From contig CALXWJ010000092.1 in NCBI GenBank assembly GCA_944392335.1, positions 1-64,000 on the forward strand: DNA of 64,000 nt, given 5' to 3'. The position numbers and the translations under genes were made by a program. The notes beneath the pieces were generated by a model. That model saw only the letters and a program-made list of their open reading frames with translations. It was not told the DNA's origin and made no database searches. Positions within the stretch are counted from its first letter, which is position 1; every line of letters starts with the position of its first letter. Shown here in pieces: positions 3,930-51,942 of the stretch. This stretch comes from an uncultured Clostridia bacterium (lineage in GTDB: Bacteria > Bacillota > Clostridia > UBA1381).

Positions 3930-3988
3930 AGACCTCTTCCTTTACATTAATAATATAGTCACAAATTTCCACTCGGTTCATTTTTTTC

Positions 3989-4130
3989 AATAATAATTTG
4001 TCCCGTTATTCTGCGGGGACAAGAACACTGCAATACAGTGATATAATCAGTTGAAGATCGCGCTCTCACTCTGATTAAAGATATGGAGCCCGCCGCCGTC
4101 AGTGGCGGGGGACATCTTGTCCGCAGTTAT
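3989..4130 (+). repeat. Dispersed multi-hairpin repeat, copy 1
   Basis: Begins TTC|AATAA and then TTTGTCCCG, and ends CCGCAGTTAT. It keeps the TTGTCCC/GGGGACAA stem, an AATCAG/CTGATT stem and the CCGCC/GGCGG stem. It occupies most of the gene-free stretch 3930-4313 and does not touch a stop codon, unlike several other copies. Confidence 0.85.
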
Positions 4131-4228
4131 CATATCATATTTTTTTTGAAATTTCAACACAAACAAAAAAATGTTAGAAAACTGTCATATGTAAATTACT
4201 TAAATCAGCAATTTTACCTATGAAGCAT

Positions 4229-4968: not shown

Positions 4969-4995
4969 ATTACGGTTATCAATTCCTAATTATTC

Positions 4996-5158
4996 AATAA
5001 GGGCTTGTCCCGTCTTGGGCGGGGACAAGAGCGAAACAGGCGATTCGTGAATCGCCCCTACGGCGCTTTGCTGTAATCAGCGGGAGATTGAACTCTTGCT
5101 GATTACAAATATGCAGCCCGCCGCCGATTACGGCGGGGGACAACATGCGCGCAGTTAT
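4996..5158 (+). repeat. Dispersed multi-hairpin repeat, copy 2 (reference full-length copy)
   Basis: Four successive hairpins are visible: A, CTTGTCCC (5004-5011) with GGGACAAG (5022-5029); B, GGCGATTC (5039-5046) with GAATCGCC (5049-5056); C, TGTAATCAGC (5072-5081) with GCTGATTACA (5098-5107); D, CCGCCG (5121-5126) with CGGCGG (5131-5136). The left end is AATAAGGGCTTG preceded by TTC and the right end GCGCAGTTAT. The right end is 22 bp from the permease stop codon. Confidence 0.92.
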
Positions 5159-5180
5159 ACTCAATCAATTGATTACTGTA

Positions 5181-6696: not shown

Positions 6697-6877
6697 AATG
6701 TATCATTCCTAATTTTGCCATCATCAATTATAACATATCAATTATGCTTTGTAAAGGAAATTTTAATTTTTTGTAAATTTTTGTTAAATTTTTTGGTTTT
6801 TTACTGTTTCCATACATATAACGAAATCAAAGATGGTGCTGCATAAAACTCGACGTATAAAATGAGCGCGTATGGGA

Positions 6878-7053
6878 GTGTCCAAAAAAATCGTTCAGAA
6901 CGGGCGAAAATCAGTTTGCAGCGGCCTTGCCCGACGGCGTATTGGCATACTCCGAGGATGATTTTCGTTCGTAGTTTGAGGGCATAAACACAGAAAATCC
7001 GCCAAAAAGGTGGATTTTCTACATTTAAGGAGTATTTTAAATTTTTTTGACAC
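6878..7053. mobile_element. MITE-like element with terminal inverted repeats
   Basis: The outer ends are GTGTCCAAAAAAAT (6878-6891) and ATTTTTTTGACAC (7041-7053), an inverted pair differing by one C. Inside are two strong hairpins: CGAAAATCA (6905-6913) with TGATTTTCG (6959-6967), and AGAAAATCCGCC (6992-7003) with GGTGGATTTTCT (7009-7020). There is no convincing coding sequence. An 87-codon frame crosses it but has no ribosome binding site or family resemblance. No target duplication is obvious. Confidence 0.45.
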
Positions 7054-7109
7054 GTTAAAAGCAAGTAAAATCAAGTTTTTGCCCGTGAACGCTCCGGGCG
7101 ATTTTTTTT

Positions 7110-7133
7110 ACACCCCATCTTGTGCGCAGTTAT
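7110..7133 (+). repeat. Remnant right end of the dispersed repeat (copy 3)
   Basis: Only the 3' end survives: CCCATCTTGTGCGCAGTTAT matches the right ends of copies 1 and 2. The complement of TTA at 7130-7132 is the TAA stop of the amidase gene. The rest of this copy appears to have been lost, and a MITE-like element lies beside it. Confidence 0.6.
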
Positions 7134-7828
7134 TCTTTCTTGTCATACAGCCCTGCCCTGTCATTTATCACAAGTATTCTCAGCATAGTATCATCGAGAT
7201 TCAATTCATTTTTTTCATTCCCTTTAAGATAACCCAAATCAACAAGCTTTTGGATCGTCGGACGTGCCCATTCGGGCATATTCTTATCTATATAGTTATA
7301 GATCATTTTCGGCACCTCCTGTGAATCATTCATTATTTTGTTTTTAAAGCTTATCCATTTTGATTCATCCAGCATAGGTAAAGGGCAGTTTTTTCCGGTA
7401 ACGTCAAAATGCCTTATAACATTATTTATTGATATATTGTATTTTCCCATAAGATATCTGACAAGATCAATGGTATTTTTCTGTGTACCTTCTTCAAAAT
7501 ACCAGGTTCCGTCTGCTTTTTTCTTTACGCACATTTCAATCCCTATGCTGTTTGAATTGGTGCATTTTAAATAATACTCATGTCCCTCATCGCCCTGTAA
7601 CCCTCCGCCGCAATGCCAAGCCGCGTCGGAATCTTCCACACACTGCCATATACTGTTCTCATCGACAAAATAACTTGCACTTGCAGAAACTTTATTATTA
7701 TAAAAATAATCCGCATTGTTTTTTGCCGTTGATACCGCACCGACATAATGAATAACAATATATTCATTCTTTTTGTTTTTCATGGCAGTAAAATTATACG
7801 GCGTTATTTTTTTTTGAATTTCAATCAT
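7130..7828 (-). CDS. N-acetylmuramoyl-L-alanine amidase, amidase_2/PGRP type
   Basis: The 232-residue protein has an N-terminal amidase_2 domain (about 15-160). Zinc ligands are visible as His27 in 'IVIHYVG', His140 in 'VIRHFDVTGKNCP' and Cys148. The layout resembles phage-type and sporulation amidases such as XlyA/CwlA, cleaving the bond between MurNAc and L-alanine in peptidoglycan. The C-terminal segment (about 165-232, 'MPEWARPTIQKLVDLGYLKGNEKNEL') resembles a short wall-associated module often found in clostridial phage-like amidases. There is no signal peptide, and no phage genes or holin are nearby, so it is probably a stray prophage-derived or domesticated lysin. Its stop codon lies in the repeat remnant at 7110-7133. 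Confidence 0.88.
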   Translation of the reverse strand: MIEIQKKITPYNFTAMKNKKNEYIVIHYVGAVSTAKNNADYFYNNKVSASASYFVDENSIWQCVEDSDAAWHCGGGLQGDEGHEYYLKCTNSNSIGIEMCVKKKADGTWYFEEGTQKNTIDLVRYLMGKYNISINNVIRHFDVTGKNCPLPMLDESKWISFKNKIMNDSQEVPKMIYNYIDKNMPEWARPTIQKLVDLGYLKGNEKNELNLDDTMLRILVINDRAGLYDKKE

Positions 7829-21831: not shown

Positions 21832-22077
21832 TTTAAATCGGAGCAACGCCCCTGCTTTGCTTGCAAGGAGCAGAGATCGCGGCAGATTGCAGCCTGTGCA
21901 AAAAGCGTCTTCTCCTCATGGTTTGGGTGGGAGCTTCAATAAGGGCTTGCCCCGTCTGGGGCGAGGACAAGAGCGCAGGCAACACCTGCGCTGTAATCAG
22001 TGAGAGATTGAACACTCACTGATTACAATATGGAACCCTCCGCCGAAAACGGCGGGGGACATCTGCACTTAGGTTAT
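21832..22077 (+). repeat. Dispersed multi-hairpin repeat, copy 4, long form
   Basis: The core (21939-22077) begins AATAAGGGCTTG and ends GGTTAT. Its hairpin B is GCGCAGG/CCTGCGC and hairpin C the perfect 13-bp TGTAATCAGTGAG/CTCACTGATTACA. It carries about 107 bp of extra sequence on its left (21832-21938, starting TTTAAATCGGAGCAACG) that is otherwise seen only in copy 5. It fills most of the gene-free stretch 21682-22160. Confidence 0.9.
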
Positions 22078-22160
22078 AATATTTCATTCTTTACATACGG
22101 AACAAAATATGTTATTATATATAAAATTATTAAAATCCAAAAACAAAAAGGAGATCAACT

Positions 22161-22460
22161 ATGTCAGAATTACTTGAAATCATTATGATCGTGAGCTTTG
22201 GTGCATCTTGGCCGTTTAATGTTGTAAAATCTTACAAATCAAAAACCACCAAAGGAAAAAGCTTATATTTTCTTTGTCTTATTTTCTTTGGCTACATATG
22301 CGGGATTGCTTCAAAATTAGTAAACCCCGTCTACATGCAAAGCATAGCTCAAAAATGGTACGTGCTGTTTTTCTATTTTTTAAATTTAATCATGGTAGGA
22401 GCGGATCTGTGTCTGTATTTCAGAAACAAAAGGTATGAAAGAGCTGCAAAAAACAACTGA
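22161..22460 (+). CDS. SemiSWEET-like / PQ-loop family transporter
   Basis: The 99-residue protein is predicted to have three membrane segments: about 5-20, 36-55 and 68-88. The loop 'WPFNVVKSYKSKTTKGKS' after TM1 matches the PQ-loop/MtN3 pattern, in which a Pro in TM1 acts as hinge. Bacterial SemiSWEETs of about 90-100 residues dimerise to move sugars across the membrane. Substrate is not deducible. AAAAGGAGATC precedes the ATG. The gene stands alone between two long, nearly identical repeats in direct orientation (copies 4 and 5), an arrangement that could reflect joint duplication or movement. Confidence 0.8.
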   Translation: MSELLEIIMIVSFGASWPFNVVKSYKSKTTKGKSLYFLCLIFFGYICGIASKLVNPVYMQSIAQKWYVLFFYFLNLIMVGADLCLYFRNKRYERAAKNN

Positions 22461-22477
22461 AGGTAATAAAGAACATT

Positions 22478-22722
22478 TTTAAATCGGAGCAACGCTCCCG
22501 CTTTGCTTGCAAGGAGCAGAAATCGCGGCAGATTGCAGCCTGTGCAAAAAGCGTCTTCTCCTCAGGGGTTGGGTGGGAGCTTCAATAAGGGCTTGCCCCG
22601 TATAGGGCGAGGACAAGAGCGCAGGCATTGCCTGCGCTTAATCAGTGAGAGATTAAACTCTCACTGATTACAATATGGAACCCGCCGCCGAAAACGGCGG
22701 GGGACATCTGCACTTAGGTTAT
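22478..22722 (+). repeat. Dispersed multi-hairpin repeat, copy 5, long form
   Basis: Nearly identical to copy 4 over its whole length, including the left extension (22478-22583). The core starts at 22584. Hairpin B changes to GCGCAGGC/GCCTGCGC, keeping complementarity. The right end is GGTTAT. Together with the 22723-22915 leader it fills the gene-free stretch 22461-22915. Confidence 0.9.
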
Positions 22723-22795
22723 ATTAACAAATGGTCACAGTTGATATCCGTATTCTCCAAAAATTATTAAAAATGCCGAAATATTTATAATTCTC

Positions 22796-31769: not shown

Positions 31770-31782
31770 ACAAATTTTATTC

Positions 31783-31944
31783 GATAAGGGCTTGTCCCGT
31801 CTTAGGCGAGGACAAGAGCGAAACAAATGCTTCGTGAATCGCCCTTACGGTGCTTTGCTGTAATCAGAGAGATTGAACTCCTGCTGATTACAAATATGGA
31901 ACCCGCCGCCTTATATAGGCGGCGGGCAGCATGTGAGCAGTTAT
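31783..31944 (+). repeat. Dispersed multi-hairpin repeat, copy 6
   Basis: Left end TTC|GATAAGGGCTTG, right end GAGCAGTTAT. Hairpin D is lengthened to CCCGCCGCC/GGCGGCGGG. With the terminator it fills the gene-free stretch 31679-32004. Its right end is 60 bp from the stop of the protease gene. Confidence 0.9.
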
Positions 31945-32004
31945 TTTACCCCAACTATTGACAAAGAGCCTGATTTTTTACCTTGGCTATTGGCAAAGGG
32001 CAAA

Positions 32005-33453: not shown

Positions 33454-33526
33454 GTACTTTTCCTCGCTTTCTTATAGATCATGATTTTTTGTATAATACT
33501 GACATAAAGCGTCAGGTTCATTATTC

Positions 33527-33669
33527 AATAAGGGTTTGTCCCGTTATCAAACAACGGCAAGGACGCCTAATGGCAGCGCCGTGACCAGTGAAAGGATCAC
33601 ACTCTCACACTGCTTGCAGATACGGCGCCCGCCGTAGATTATGTCGTGGGACATCTTATCAGCAGTTAT
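33527..33669 (+). repeat. Dispersed multi-hairpin repeat, copy 7 (divergent)
   Basis: Left end TTC|AATAAGGGTTTG, right end AGCAGTTAT. The inner stem is CAGTG/CACTG. The last codons of the DUF1934 gene (TAT AAC TGC TGA on the minus strand) lie inside the repeat end. Confidence 0.82.
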
Positions 33670-34072
33670 ACACACTTACTGTCAAAGTATTTTTACTTTG
33701 TTCGTTTTGAAATCTTATACTGTATTCCAATTCCAATTCCCCGCCGTTTTCATTAAAACAATAATTGTTCTTATGCGTTTTCAACACCATTGTCATGGCT
33801 CCGTAGGGAGTGTTGTATATAAATTCATCTGCACTGCCGACTTTATATACCATCTTTGAATAAAAATCACCTTTTCTTGTAACAACGGTTTTTTCATCGG
33901 TAACTTTTATCATAACAGAACAATTCTGCATGCCCATTTCTTCTTTTTCCTCATAAAAAATATACCAGCTTCCGTTTTTTTCATAAAATCCGCCATCGGC
34001 AACTAATTCTATAATATCATTTTCATCATTGTCTCTCATGCTTCTTATGGATATTTTAGCATTGTTTTTCAC
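33659..34072 (-). CDS. DUF1934 family beta-barrel protein (YwiB-like)
   Basis: The 137-residue cytoplasmic protein matches DUF1934: 'DIIELVADGGFYEKNGSWYIFYEE', 'TVVTRKGDFYSKMVYKVG', 'FIYNTPYGAMTMVLKT' and 'GGELELEYSIRFQNE' strands forming a small calycin-like barrel. Function is unknown. It follows the D-Ala-D-Ala ligase gene by 53 bp in the same direction, so it may be co-transcribed with cell-wall genes. The last three residues (YNC) and the stop are encoded by the end of repeat copy 7, so the original C-terminus may have been altered by that insertion. Confidence 0.87.
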   Translation of the reverse strand: MKNNAKISIRSMRDNDENDIIELVADGGFYEKNGSWYIFYEEKEEMGMQNCSVMIKVTDEKTVVTRKGDFYSKMVYKVGSADEFIYNTPYGAMTMVLKTHKNNYCFNENGGELELEYSIRFQNEQSKNTLTVSVYNC

Positions 34073-41325: not shown

Positions 41326-41380
41326 AATTCTACATCTCTCTTTCTTTTGAATAAATAAAAATAATCTTATCCAAGCATTC

Positions 41381-41468
41381 AATAAGGGCTTGTCACGTCT
41401 TGGGCAAGGACAAAAGCACTGCACAGCAGCACTTCAATCGGTGGGAGATCACACTCTCACACCGGAGT
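41381..41468 (+). repeat. Dispersed repeat, copy 8, 3'-truncated
   Basis: Left end TTC|AATAAGGGCTTG is intact, hairpin A is degraded, and the third stem remains as CGGTG/CACCG. The GC-rich hairpin D and the CAGTTAT end are missing. It lies in the 5' leader region of the glycyl radical enzyme gene (minus strand). Confidence 0.78.
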
Positions 41469-41556
41469 AATTTTACCAATTTCCATATGTTTTTATTATA
41501 TCATAAAAAAATATATATTTCAATAGAAAATACAAGTATTTTATAATATTTTTTCA

Positions 41557-44074: not shown

Positions 44075-44100
44075 GAAAACATCCTTTCCGCGAAAATTTC

Positions 44101-44143
44101 AATAAGGGCTTGTCCTGCTATTCAACGAAGACAAAACATCGCT
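44101..44143 (+). repeat. Dispersed repeat, copy 9, left-end fragment
   Basis: TTC|AATAAGGGCTTGTCCTG with the degraded first hairpin only. It sits between yycH and yycI. Confidence 0.65.
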
Positions 44144-44196
44144 AACATATTTTATTTATCTTTTTTAAGAGAAAATACACACACAATATCCGCGCT

Positions 44197-45618
44197 TTAT
44201 TCCCCTACAATTACATTATCTACCTCTACGATCCAATTTGCGTATTTATCTCCCACATTCCCGTCATCATTGTAGCCTATATACATTTTCTTTATATTTA
44301 TTTCATTCATGAATTCCGAATATTGCGCGATTGCATTGTCCAAAGCGGTAAAAAATTCACTCGGGGCGGCTGTTTCGGATTTTACGTCATAATGTCTTAT
44401 CAATTGTCTGTAGCTTACTAACCGTCCGTTTTCTACCTTTGCGGATACTCCGGAAGAAATGTAATCGGTTTCGATAACAACCCTCGTTCCCATTACCATA
44501 TAATCAAAATTTATAGTGTTTATATCATCGCTTTGTGAAAGATACATTGCCTCACTGTTTCCCAAAGCCTTGTTTATCTCTGATGTGATCGCCGTTAAGT
44601 TCATTATATCCGAATATTCGCTGTTTTCAGAATCGGACAGCTCCATCCCCGTATCCATTGCCGTATACTCCAAGAATCCGTTTCGGTCAATTTTCAATGT
44701 GGCATTATTTTCAACAAACACAAGCGTCCCGCCGGCTTCGGTATATCTTCTCATTGTACTTGCATTTATATCAAATATCTGCAAAATATTATTAATTATC
44801 GTTTCATTGATATTTTCCCCATCCTCCATTATGAGGTTTACCGCTTCTATAACAGGCATCGGTGATGTTGTCGAATAAACCTGTATAAGCGGATTTAATG
44901 TGGTTTTCTGGCTGCCGAAGGGCTGATCGAACTTCAGGTCGAATGAATAGTTTATAACGTTTTCAACATTATAATCGTTTTTTTCCACACGCTCGTCACA
45001 TAACTCCCTGAGCTTTTCGCAATCCCTGTTTACACTGATCCTATAATAGCTGTCGGAATCAAAATCCGCTATGTATATATTGCATCTTGAGCCGTTTGCG
45101 GAATATGATATGACTATATCGGAAAACTCGGTCTCCTCCGGTATTATCTGATTATCCGCATCCGCCCCCAGTAATTGTTCAAACAGATCCACACTGTATT
45201 TCCTTGCATAGGAAAGATATACCGATTGGACCGATAATGCCGAATACAATTCTTCCTTATCTATTTTTACAATCATTTCAGCTGGCGCTGAAAAAGCCAT
45301 TTTTAAAATTTCATCCGTTTCCGCCGTTATGTCCTTAAACGCGCTGTCATTCGGATTCAAAGATATCCTGGTCGTCTGGTCTCCTGTATTCAAAAGAATT
45401 TTTTCCGGATTCAATACCTGTATTTCATATTGGTCATCATCTGTAAAATAATTTACGATATTTTCATACAGCTTTGTAATGCGTAAATTCCCTATATTTG
45501 AAAAAAAATTATAGCCGGTAGGCCATAATTTTTTCTCAATCAATATTCTGCTTCCCAAAACAAAATTCAGTATAATCAGGAACCCCAGCAAAGCACTTTT
45601 TAACCGTTCCTTTTTCAT
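44197..45618 (-). CDS. yycH: YycH-like regulator of the WalK sensor kinase
   Basis: The 473-residue protein has an N-terminal membrane helix ('LKSALLGFLIILNFVLGSRIL') and a long extracytoplasmic region of repeated alpha/beta units. Its position after walK and before yycI, and the start 'KERLKSALLGFLI', fit YycH, which with YycI controls WalK activity. The central domain (about 270-340) and the C-terminal part ('TPNYNDDGNVGDKYANWIVEVDN'-like strands) echo the YycI fold. Sequence similarity in this family is weak, so identity relies on topology and synteny. Confidence 0.75.
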   Translation of the reverse strand: MKKERLKSALLGFLIILNFVLGSRILIEKKLWPTGYNFFSNIGNLRITKLYENIVNYFTDDDQYEIQVLNPEKILLNTGDQTTRISLNPNDSAFKDITAETDEILKMAFSAPAEMIVKIDKEELYSALSVQSVYLSYARKYSVDLFEQLLGADADNQIIPEETEFSDIVISYSANGSRCNIYIADFDSDSYYRISVNRDCEKLRELCDERVEKNDYNVENVINYSFDLKFDQPFGSQKTTLNPLIQVYSTTSPMPVIEAVNLIMEDGENINETIINNILQIFDINASTMRRYTEAGGTLVFVENNATLKIDRNGFLEYTAMDTGMELSDSENSEYSDIMNLTAITSEINKALGNSEAMYLSQSDDINTINFDYMVMGTRVVIETDYISSGVSAKVENGRLVSYRQLIRHYDVKSETAAPSEFFTALDNAIAQYSEFMNEINIKKMYIGYNDDGNVGDKYANWIVEVDNVIVGE

Positions 45619-46152: not shown

Positions 46153-46340
46153 AGTGTTTCCTCCTCAAAAATTATATTAAAAAACTCAAATTCAATTACT
46201 TTAATCATACACTTTAAAGCAACAATTTACACAAAGACCAAATACCATATTGAAATTGTTTCCATTATTATTAATATTATTATACCACAAATATATTACA
46301 AATCAATTACTGCAATTTTAAATACATATAACAATATTCA

Positions 46341-46489
46341 ATAAGGGCTTGTCCCGCTGTTTGACAAAGGCTAAAACACAGCTATGCAGCGCTTCCGCTG
46401 TAATCAGCAAAAATCATACTTTTTTATATTGATTACAGATATAAAGCCCTCCGCATGCAAATGCGCGGGACATCCTGTCGCAAAGCTAT
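46341..46489 (+). repeat. Dispersed multi-hairpin repeat, copy 10
   Basis: Left end TTC|AATAAGGGCTTGTCCC, right end AAAGCTAT. Hairpin D changes to CGCAT/ATGCG around GCAA. The TAG stop codon of walK (46486-46488) is inside the right end. It occupies the gene-free stretch 46153-46485; the remaining bases are AT-rich with nothing else recognised. Confidence 0.85.
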
Positions 46490-48246
46490 TTTACCGGGAT
46501 GGTAATAACGACCTCCGTTCCCTTTCCGAGCTCTGAATTTATTGCGATGTTTCCGCCCAGATTGGTAATGATCTGTTTCGCGATCGCAAGCCCCAGTCCC
46601 GTGCCTCCGGTATCACGGCTTCTTGCCTTATCAACACGATAGAACCTTTCAAATATCCTTGACAGGTTTTCTTTGGGAATACCTATACCGTTATCGATAA
46701 CCTTTATAAAAGCATCGTCATACAGCTTTCCCGATATTATATCTATCTTACCTTCTTCCGGCGTATATTTTATCGCGTTTGAAACTATATTTATTATAAC
46801 CTGTTCAAGCTTGTCACGGTCGCTTTTAAAGACAGGGACAGTGTTCATCACCTTGTATTTTATCTCCTGATTTTTTTTCTTCGCCATTATAAACATTTTT
46901 TCCGTGACGCCCTCAAGCATTACCTGCAGGTCTATGTCCTCAGGCTCTTTTTGCTCATCCTGTTTTTCGTCAAGTCTTGACAAGGTCAAAAGATCCTTGA
47001 CTATTCTTGTCATTCTGTCAGTTTCTTTTATAATAACACTGAGAAATTTATTCTGTAACTCCTTATCCTCAATGGGATTATCCATAAGGGTTTCCGCGTA
47101 TGACTTTACCGTCGTAAGCGGGGTCCTTAATTCATGGGATACATTGGACACAAACTCATGTCTTGCATGCTCCAGCTTTTCCTGGCTTGTATTGTCCCTC
47201 ATCACCACAAGCACGCCGGTCACTTTATTATCGGTCTCGATTGCCGCGAAATTCAATTTTATGTATTTGCCGTTGTATTCAACCAATCTTTCGGGCGACT
47301 GGTCGTTTTTGATATAGACCAAATAACCCAGTGTGATATTTGCATTTAATTTTTTGAAAAAATCATCAAAGGTAATATTTTCCCTGTCCTCTTGCTTTAT
47401 CATATGCTCTGCTTCGGGATTCATATGTATCAATTTCTGATTCAGGTCAAAAGCGAGAATACCGTCCGTCATATTTTGAAGGATCGTTTCAACCTTTGTT
47501 TTTTCTTCATTTACCTCATTAATGGTATTGGACAGCTGTTCAGCCATATACCCGAACGCATTGGAAAGCCTTCCGATCTCATCATCAGATGACGATCTTT
47601 CAAAGTTGTCAAATTCTCCCGCGGCAAGCTTATCCGCTCTTTTTGTAAGATTGATTATAGGCACCGTTATGGTTTTGCTGAGCAGATAACCTATAACGCA
47701 TGAGGTCAGTACCGCCAGAAGAAGCGCCTGCATAACAATTATCAAAACATTGCTTGTTATACTGTTGATCTCTTCCTTTGTATCCTTTATATAAATTATA
47801 TATCCGCCGCCGTTTTCACCCCTGATCGGTACGGCATAGTCCATATAACCCTTATCGGTGTTTACAAGATTTCCCGTTTTGCCTCCCATTGCTACCACAA
47901 TGTTGTCGGTAATATTCAGATCGGCGTTTTCTGTATTATCGAGATTTCTCAAAACGGCGCCCGTATTCAAATCAAGTATACTGCAGGATCTGTATGTATC
48001 AATCCCCAACGGCCCGATATAGGAGCTTATGGTCGTATAAATATTTTCAAGCGAATTTTCCGTCTTTGCCGTTTGTTCCAGCTGATATACAAAGTCGTCA
48101 GTAAAAACCCTGTTCATCATAACAGAAAACTCTTCATTGTAAAAATTCACAATATTTACAAGCATAAAAGATCCCACAACAGTTATTATTGAGATCGTAA
48201 GCAAAACAAAAATCAATACAATCTTATATTGTATACTCTTTAACAT
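46486..48246 (-). CDS. walK: Sensor histidine kinase WalK
   Basis: The 586-residue membrane kinase has TM1 (about 8-30), an extracytoplasmic Cache-like sensor (about 31-170), TM2 (about 172-195), HAMP (about 197-250, 'TVPIINLTKRADKLAAGEFDNF'), a PAS domain (about 260-350), and HisKA with the phosphorylated His in 'EFVSNVSHELRTPLTTVK' (about 372). The HATPase has 'IIINIVSNAIKYTPEEG' (N box), 'DNGIGIPKEN' and 'GTGLGLAIAKQI'. This is the WalK layout that governs wall homeostasis. It follows walR by 6 bp. Its stop codon is within repeat copy 10, which would leave the repeat in the 3' UTR. Confidence 0.94.
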   Translation of the reverse strand: MLKSIQYKIVLIFVLLTISIITVVGSFMLVNIVNFYNEEFSVMMNRVFTDDFVYQLEQTAKTENSLENIYTTISSYIGPLGIDTYRSCSILDLNTGAVLRNLDNTENADLNITDNIVVAMGGKTGNLVNTDKGYMDYAVPIRGENGGGYIIYIKDTKEEINSITSNVLIIVMQALLLAVLTSCVIGYLLSKTITVPIINLTKRADKLAAGEFDNFERSSSDDEIGRLSNAFGYMAEQLSNTINEVNEEKTKVETILQNMTDGILAFDLNQKLIHMNPEAEHMIKQEDRENITFDDFFKKLNANITLGYLVYIKNDQSPERLVEYNGKYIKLNFAAIETDNKVTGVLVVMRDNTSQEKLEHARHEFVSNVSHELRTPLTTVKSYAETLMDNPIEDKELQNKFLSVIIKETDRMTRIVKDLLTLSRLDEKQDEQKEPEDIDLQVMLEGVTEKMFIMAKKKNQEIKYKVMNTVPVFKSDRDKLEQVIINIVSNAIKYTPEEGKIDIISGKLYDDAFIKVIDNGIGIPKENLSRIFERFYRVDKARSRDTGGTGLGLAIAKQIITNLGGNIAINSELGKGTEVVITIPVK

Positions 48247-50815: not shown

Positions 50816-51856
50816 ATGAATATAAATTTTTTAGTGAACAATACTCTGTCAAACGATATCGGCATAGATATCGGTACCGAGACCACCCTTATATATATTG
50901 CGGGAAAAGGGATCGTATTAAAGGAGCCGTCGTATATCGCATATGACGTCTGTTCCGACAAGCTCGAGGCGGTAGGGTCAAAAGCAAAAGAGATGCTCGG
51001 AAAAGCCCCCTCATGCATAAAAGTAATAAAACCCATGGCAAACGGCGTTATTTCAGACAAGGACATGGCTTGTAAAATGATCGGGGAATTTATTGCTTCA
51101 ATATTGCAAAAAACAATACTGAAGCCAAGGATAATCGCCTCCGTTTCCATGGGCAGCACCCAGGTGGAACAGCGCGCTCTTTGCGAGGTTTTAAAGGAAG
51201 TCTGTGCAAGGGATGTTTATCTTATAGAAGAGCCCTTGGCTGCCGCCGCCGGCGCGGGATGCGATATTTCTTTGGCACGGGGTATGCTTATTGCGGATAT
51301 AGGCGCCGGAAGCTGTGACGTCGCATCTATATCTTTAGGCAATTCCGTTATCGGAAAATCCATAACTACCGCCGGGGATGCATTTACAAATGAAATAACA
51401 CAATATGTGAAGAAAAATTACGCCTTGGATATAGGCTTTCTTACGGCGGAAAATATAAAAAAACAAATCGGATGCGCATATCCCTTTGAGAGTATCAGAA
51501 CAATGACGGTTTACGGAAGCGACATAACAAACGGGATGCCGAGAATGATAAGCCTGTCGTCGGAAGAAATAAGGGAAGTCTTTGACCCTCTTTTATTGCA
51601 GATCGCCGAAATAATCAAAACGACCCTTGAAGATACGCCCCCTGAGCTTCAGTCCGATATCCTGGAGGACGGCATACTGCTAACGGGAGGCGGGGCAAAG
51701 CTGTACGGCATTGACCGCCGGCTCAGGATGGAAACGGAGATCAAAGTTTTTGTGACTGAAAATATGGAAGAATGTGTTATAAACGGAATCGGTTCGGAGC
51801 TTGCAAAATTGGATATACCCAATAACCAGACAACAAAATTTTACTATTCCTTATAA
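50816..51856 (+). CDS. MreB/Mbl-like actin homologue (divergent paralogue)
   Basis: The 346-residue protein has the actin ATPase fold: phosphate 1 'GIDIGTETTLIYIAGKGIVL' at about 15, connect 'EEPLAAAAGAG' at about 145, phosphate 2 'ADIGAGSCDVASISLG' at about 167, and 'GILLTGGGAKLYGIDRRL' (adenosine motif) at about 295. Phosphate 2 reads DIGAGSCD where MreB has DIGGGTTD, which may alter nucleotide turnover. There is no mreC/mreD beside it, so it is a lone paralogue rather than the main shape gene. AAAGGA precedes the ATG. Its TAA stop lies in the inverted repeat copy 11. Confidence 0.87.
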   Translation: MNINFLVNNTLSNDIGIDIGTETTLIYIAGKGIVLKEPSYIAYDVCSDKLEAVGSKAKEMLGKAPSCIKVIKPMANGVISDKDMACKMIGEFIASILQKTILKPRIIASVSMGSTQVEQRALCEVLKEVCARDVYLIEEPLAAAAGAGCDISLARGMLIADIGAGSCDVASISLGNSVIGKSITTAGDAFTNEITQYVKKNYALDIGFLTAENIKKQIGCAYPFESIRTMTVYGSDITNGMPRMISLSSEEIREVFDPLLLQIAEIIKTTLEDTPPELQSDILEDGILLTGGGAKLYGIDRRLRMETEIKVFVTENMEECVINGIGSELAKLDIPNNQTTKFYYSL

Positions 51857-51911
51857 CTGCGCTGCATAGCCGCGCTCTTGCCCCCGTTGAATGACCGGGC
51901 AAGCCCTTATT
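51853..51911 (-). repeat. Dispersed repeat, copy 11, inverted and internally deleted
   Basis: The only minus-oriented copy. From right to left it keeps AATAAGGGCTTG and a weak first hairpin, then GCTATGCAGCGC joined directly to AGTTAT. About 100 bp of the middle is missing. Its end supplies the TAA stop of the MreB-like gene (51854-51856). Confidence 0.82.
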
Positions 51912-51942
51912 GAACATAAACCAAACTGAAAGGCTTTTTTAT

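Follow-up and report, generated by a model that had tools for sequence, protein, structure and literature searches.

REP and REPIN sequences, which go with RAYT, are high-copy intergenic palindromes that carry no genes and are recognised by the shape of their hairpins. In integrons, too, structure rather than sequence is recognised on a folded strand, at attC sites with the boxes R'' (RYYYAAC) and R' (GTTRRRY). The IS200/IS605 systems, related to RAYT, act on the lagging-strand template (PMC6006769). Two further groups belong in this comparison: BOX and SPRITE of Streptococcus pneumoniae are modular, structured, intergenic and present in many copies, with a mover that is uncertain (PMC3049150), and bcr1 of the Bacillus cereus group and ERIC are structured intergenic repeats of ~130-170 nt (PMC2267715). 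What moves structured repeats of this kind, and could the folded strand itself be the form in which they spread?

We describe here a repeat of gut Clostridia that shares features with each of these systems. Like REP and REPIN it is a gene-less, hairpin-rich intergenic sequence of high copy number, but it measures about 115-165 nt, it forms as many as four hairpins, its own hairpins have no GTAG or GTGG foot, and its ends are TTCAATAAG and GTTATA; a true REP occurs only as a module nested in hairpin B. As at attC, structure rather than sequence appears to be read on a folded strand, yet cassette arrays are absent, and neither GTTATA nor TTCAATAAGG, the end sequences, matches the consensus R'' and R' boxes. 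BOX, SPRITE, bcr1 and ERIC belong to other host groups and are set apart here by their descriptions only; unlike BOX and SPRITE, the Clostridia element has had its stems replaced between genera, with its ends fixed. No description of such a Clostridia repeat was found in the open-access papers searched; the end sequence turned up in four papers, unrelated by their titles.

A dispersed repeat of up to four hairpins

The window, by which we mean the whole stretch of 64,000 nucleotides analysed, contains ten copies found by a covariance model (E 5e-34 to 4e-5) and one 3' remnant (Table 1), the number originally predicted from the letters alone. The model was built from 48 copies drawn from three genomes. 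The segment at 4996-5158, with which the original prediction was concerned, fits copy 2, which folds far better than dinucleotide shuffles of its sequence on either strand (z -4.6 and -5.2). Aligned copies have a common frame of ~140-165 nt with four hairpins. Model matches are spread over the whole host genome, beyond the window, and the core AATAAGGGCTTG has 95 exact occurrences in its 3.64 Mb, versus 0 times for a reversed control pattern. Placement is intergenic: with ORFs called mechanically, 7 of 124 copies are mostly ORF-covered, compared to an ORF coverage of 82% in the flanks.

Table 1. Copies of the repeat, their hairpins and associated modules in the window.
Feature	Position	Strand	Evidence or remark
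Copy 1	3986-4131	+	covariance model
Copy 2, reference copy, four hairpins	4993-5159	+	model match 134.6 bits, E 4.5e-34; ends TTC/AATAAGG ... GTTATA
Hairpin A of copy 2 (CTTGTCCCG..CGGGGACAAG)	5004-5029	+	fold; pairs mostly with one-sided changes or broken; no double changes in alignment A3
GTAG-type REP (GTAGGGGCGATTCACGAATCGCC) nested in hairpin B of copy 2	5039-5061	-	same sequence also stands alone
Hairpin C of copy 2 (TGTAATCAGCGGGAG..CTCTTGCTGATTACA)	5072-5107	+	strongest covariation
Hairpin D of copy 2 (CCCGCCGCCGATTACGGCGGGGG)	5117-5139	+	fold; varies little across genera, with 90.8% paired
3' remnant of the hairpin element	~7115-7135		abuts another, different repeat
Family II (a related family), 5' part (AAATCGGAGCAACGCCCC...), joined to next copy	21835-21934	+	
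Composite copy, family II type 3' end (TTAGGTTATA)	21935-22078	+	covariance model
5' part of family II	22481-22580	+	
Composite copy nearly identical to that at 21.9 kb	22581-22723	+	covariance model
Copy with decayed nested REP in hairpin B	31780-31945	+	covariance model
Diverged full-length copy	33524-33670	+	covariance model
Copy truncated in its 3' half	41378-41517	+	covariance model
5' remnant	44098-44201	+	covariance model
Diverged full-length copy	46337-46490	+	covariance model
Short copy	51751-51914	-	covariance model; match overruns, true 3' end near 51853

The different repeat that abuts the 3' remnant occupies 6845-7116 of the window, is ~270-300 bp long (GGCTGTAAAAAAACTCGACG...TTTTTTTACACC) and recurs at five other places in the genome, at 84-92% (L240, L244, L245, L247, L249).

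How widely is the element distributed? Searching the genome and related Clostridia with the model, as had been proposed, recovered copies genome-wide. At E<=1e-5, 22 of the 70 genomes surveyed in the host's family had matches, and the 25 genomes surveyed in the order's other families had none. At most 33 candidates were scored per genome in this survey, so counts per genome are to be read as "at least", and some of the matches belong to family II. Outside the host family, Acetivibrio sp. MSJd-27 has 77 matches, the MAG U.9_6 74 and a Ruminococcus-type MAG 116, and two more genomes have 51 and 25. Copies per gut Clostridia genome range from dozens to more than 100. Several of these genomes are fragmentary MAGs, and the loci studied are stretches taken around copies. 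The repeat had been predicted to be previously unplaced, and Rfam indeed returned nothing at the element at gathering or relaxed thresholds, with sub-threshold matches elsewhere in the window. Plasmid and phage records gave no match to the element. A single match in IMG/VR was a chance match to the 5' end, with no element present.

Covariation of the stems and decay of resident copies

The original prediction had the hairpin arms changing together under selection for a folded single strand. RNAalifold gave no pairs on alignment A2, and the structures were therefore set by hand. In the sequence-only alignment A3, 114 cells had changed on both sides of a pair, compared to 44.6+-6.6 after shuffling; these changes fall in hairpins B, C and D, with none in A. 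Across genera (alignment A6) we counted 36 both-side changes versus 11.7+-2.4 shuffled, in 13 pairs versus 6.1, and in hairpin C 11 of 13 pairs had changed on both sides, with 91.9% paired. We also applied a tree-aware test of our own, which follows the idea of R-scape by re-placing substitutions along a FastTree tree and scoring column pairs by a G-test with APC. For 127 sequences of many genomes, helix pairs took ranks 1-5 among all column pairs, and three pairs of hairpin C fell below E 0.05 (E 0.02-0.04); on single genomes, whose trees are shallow, no pair was significant. Covariation thus has statistical support in hairpins C and B, but the arms are not equal in this respect, with almost no paired changes in A and few in D.

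One of the contrasts first offered as compensation turned out otherwise. The hairpin B arms of copy 2, GGCGATTC/GAATCGCC, are not compensatory variants of those in copies 4 and 5, because they constitute a separate mobile repeat: they belong to the minus-strand sequence of the nested GTAG-type REP, read 5061-5039. This REP is found alone three times beside a RAYT gene (locus L010) and also at L075, and is embedded in about a dozen further copies. Part of the covariation seen initially is therefore module insertion.

Fold is retained where sequence is not. The most distant consensuses have only 42-60% identity and the same fold plan. In short forms (G009, G022, G077, G024), from which hairpin B is missing, an outer stem encloses D, and its arms also vary together: AAAGTAAG/CTTGCTTT, AATTAAG/CTTAATT and ACGAAAG/CTTTCGT.

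Is this structure maintained at each locus? Trees of the host copies record 701 single-sided changes, 403 of them pair-breaking, and 28 pair-to-pair double changes versus 5.8 expected with shuffled partners. Those of MSJd-27 copies record 78 single-sided changes, 55 of which break pairs, and 11 doubles, all in hairpin C, versus 0.6 expected. Resident copies mostly lose pairs, and selection therefore targets the form that spreads rather than the individual locus. A folded strand is what is conserved, as predicted, but it is not kept copy by copy; the decay of residents, together with pairing kept in multiplying lineages, is that of a mobile element that needs folding to spread.

Ends, insertion site and nesting

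The conserved edges noted at the outset hold throughout: the element begins with TTCAATAAG (rarely TCAAATAAG) and ends with GTTATA, beyond which the flanks are unrelated, in the host, in six other genomes and in MSJd-27. In the flanks of 94 host copies no direct repeat of any length tested was enriched, and target duplication was absent from near-identical copies in G009 and from G097; duplications of at least 4 bp do not occur.

The insertion site can be read from copies nested in family II, a related repeat with 42 matches in the host that has its last hairpins and 3' end in common with the present element (family I). The empty family II loop, GGGAGATTATAACTCCC, is found at L211, L217 and L219, with small variants at L213, L216 and L233. 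The filled loop reads GAGATT-CAATAAGG...GCAGTT-ATAACTCCC, with family I inside (L226, identical with L028; variants at L207 and at L214, which equals L058). From empty and filled loops, insertion therefore took place at TT/ATAA, with no duplication or with one of TT only. The target of the nested insertions is TTATAA, and a 2-bp TT duplication is indistinguishable from none. Base-exact empty sites are of this one kind, nested copies, which might record few events or an exchange between families. Composite copies of II and I have themselves multiplied, including the window pair whose family II parts begin at 21.8 and 22.5 kb. These two near-identical composites (21835-22723) enclose an ORF of 99 aa (22161-22460) with a weak PQ-loop match.

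Presence and absence were seen at the window locus itself: the site of copy 2 is empty at the orthologous position of the same-genus genome G002, which is too diverged for exact breakpoints. Two other genomes of the genus, G001 and G003 (both incomplete), had no model match, and near-identical copies are present in G009.

Simpler and further composite arrangements exist. The 5' end occurs as a single palindrome (TTCAATAAGGGCTTGCCCCGTCATTATA) and as an inverted pair, like solo REP and REPIN (L143, L177, L128, L130, L163, L170, L087). A further insert, bounded by CTTAAG (CATTAGAGAGTCGAAC...), is seen in MSJd-27, where it lies in the loop of hairpin D or replaces that hairpin (L142, L157, L186, L195).

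The folded strand and its possible movers

RNA or DNA had been left open in the original prediction. We judged orientation by local GC skew, not by mapped origins. Of 104 host copies, 80 carry their top strand on the strand of negative skew, which is C-rich (p 3e-8), and G009 shows the same for 17 of its 20 copies (p 0.003); MSJd-27 has only a trend (19/28, p 0.09), and no bias was found in G097 (9/20) or U.9_6 (6/10). Between convergent or divergent host genes, where transcription is balanced, the bias persists (33/37, p 1e-6). By the usual GC-skew rule, a top strand on the C-rich strand puts the bottom strand on the lagging-strand template, and this is therefore where the bottom strand is placed in the biased genomes. 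Mismatches in top-strand stems comprise 44 A.C versus 15 G.T cells in MSJd-27 and 52 versus 48 in the host. A.C is thus not rarer than G.T, the reverse of what is expected of a top-strand RNA, although strand-biased mutation could mimic this. In four MSJd-27 copies (L161, L166, L169, L179) the loop of hairpin C is inverted, which is a DNA-level change. With host orientation tracking replication rather than transcription, flipped loops and no G.T preference, the evidence leans to DNA over RNA.

We favour, with a probability of roughly 0.6, the view that the repeats are one family of small mobile DNA elements, non-autonomous, spreading in the form of folded single-stranded DNA and moved in trans; the single-stranded intermediate and the trans-acting enzyme we infer. 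Such an enzyme would most likely recognise the folded single strand, because of which the stems would be free to drift as long as they pair, with both ends fixed. Of the two strands, the bottom one (5' TATAAC...CCTTATTGAA 3') would be active, exposed as part of the lagging-strand template, and insertion would follow a TATAA-like target without duplicating it. Neither a mobilising enzyme nor an autonomous copy was found at the Y1 loci or the long 5'-to-3' spans searched, and the IS110 domain Transposase_20 was not found in the copy-rich MSJd-27 and U.9_6; assemblies may be incomplete here, or the movers extinct.

Could a Y1 HUH transposase, of either the IS200/IS605 or the RAYT type, move these elements or once have moved them, making them large relatives of REPINs? 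Hairpins, an AT-rich target retained on one side, the lack of target duplication (a TT duplication being possible) and lagging-strand orientation agree with reports on IS608 and ISDra2 (PMC6006769), the orientation in the host and G009 though not in G097 or U.9_6. The host carries a RAYT gene (L010 1447-1977, minus strand; NCBIfam REP-associated tyrosine transposase NF047646, 81.4 bits) as well as a second Y1-like protein, and the single-palindrome and inverted-pair versions (L143, L177, L170, L087) fit as well. Against this, Y1_Tnp occurs in 6 of 22 carrier genomes of the family versus 28 of 48 non-carriers. No Y1 domain was found in the copy-rich U.9_6 and G100, and only pieces of ~20 residues in MSJd-27, assemblies that may be incomplete. 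Nor do the element ends flank Y1 genes at the loci searched, where no TnpA or IS with the same ends was seen; the element contains no transposase gene, its own hairpins are without the GTAG foot, and the second host protein (L009 1048-1893, minus strand, 281 aa) has K-V-H at the position expected for the HUH motif and may, judged by this motif, be inactive or domesticated. The likeness to IS200/IS605 is a strong one in mode of action, but it does not extend to membership, and we consider a Y1 mover unlikely. At L010, three GTAG-type REPs lie around the RAYT gene, and the ORF immediately upstream contains two of them, read as VGAIHESP.

A functional RNA, be it regulatory or a processed transcript, with copies retained for the sake of their structure, would account for the covariation, the strong RNA folds of both strands and the intergenic placement. 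It is at odds with the decay of resident copies, in which 403 of 701 single-sided changes in the host break pairs against 28 compensations (55 of 78 in MSJd-27), with an orientation that in the host follows replication even under balanced transcription, with the missing G.U preference on the top strand and with the absence of the element from the orthologous site in the same genus; we regard this explanation as improbable. Least probable is an ordinary MITE of DDE insertion-sequence origin, spread through terminal inverted repeats, which size, intergenic location and weak terminal complementarity (AATAAGGGC/GCC..TTAT) would suit, but for which target site duplication is absent even among near-identical G009 copies, no perfect terminal inverted repeat exists and no matching IS was found.

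A folded DNA element moved in trans may, on a tentative view that we hold with considerable doubt, stand for a widespread class recognised, on the lagging-strand template, by the shape into which it folds, with a mover that is neither a Y1 HUH enzyme nor a known DDE transposase. In several Clostridia the element ranks with the most abundant intergenic repeats, three non-host genomes having 74-116 model matches, and it both houses other repeats and recombines with a second family. That its stems covary and its ends do not is direct evidence for a role of folding in its spreading. Its fixed ends, its TTATAA target and the copy-rich genomes in which no Y1 gene was found turn the matter of what moves structured bacterial repeats, BOX and SPRITE among them, into a testable question.
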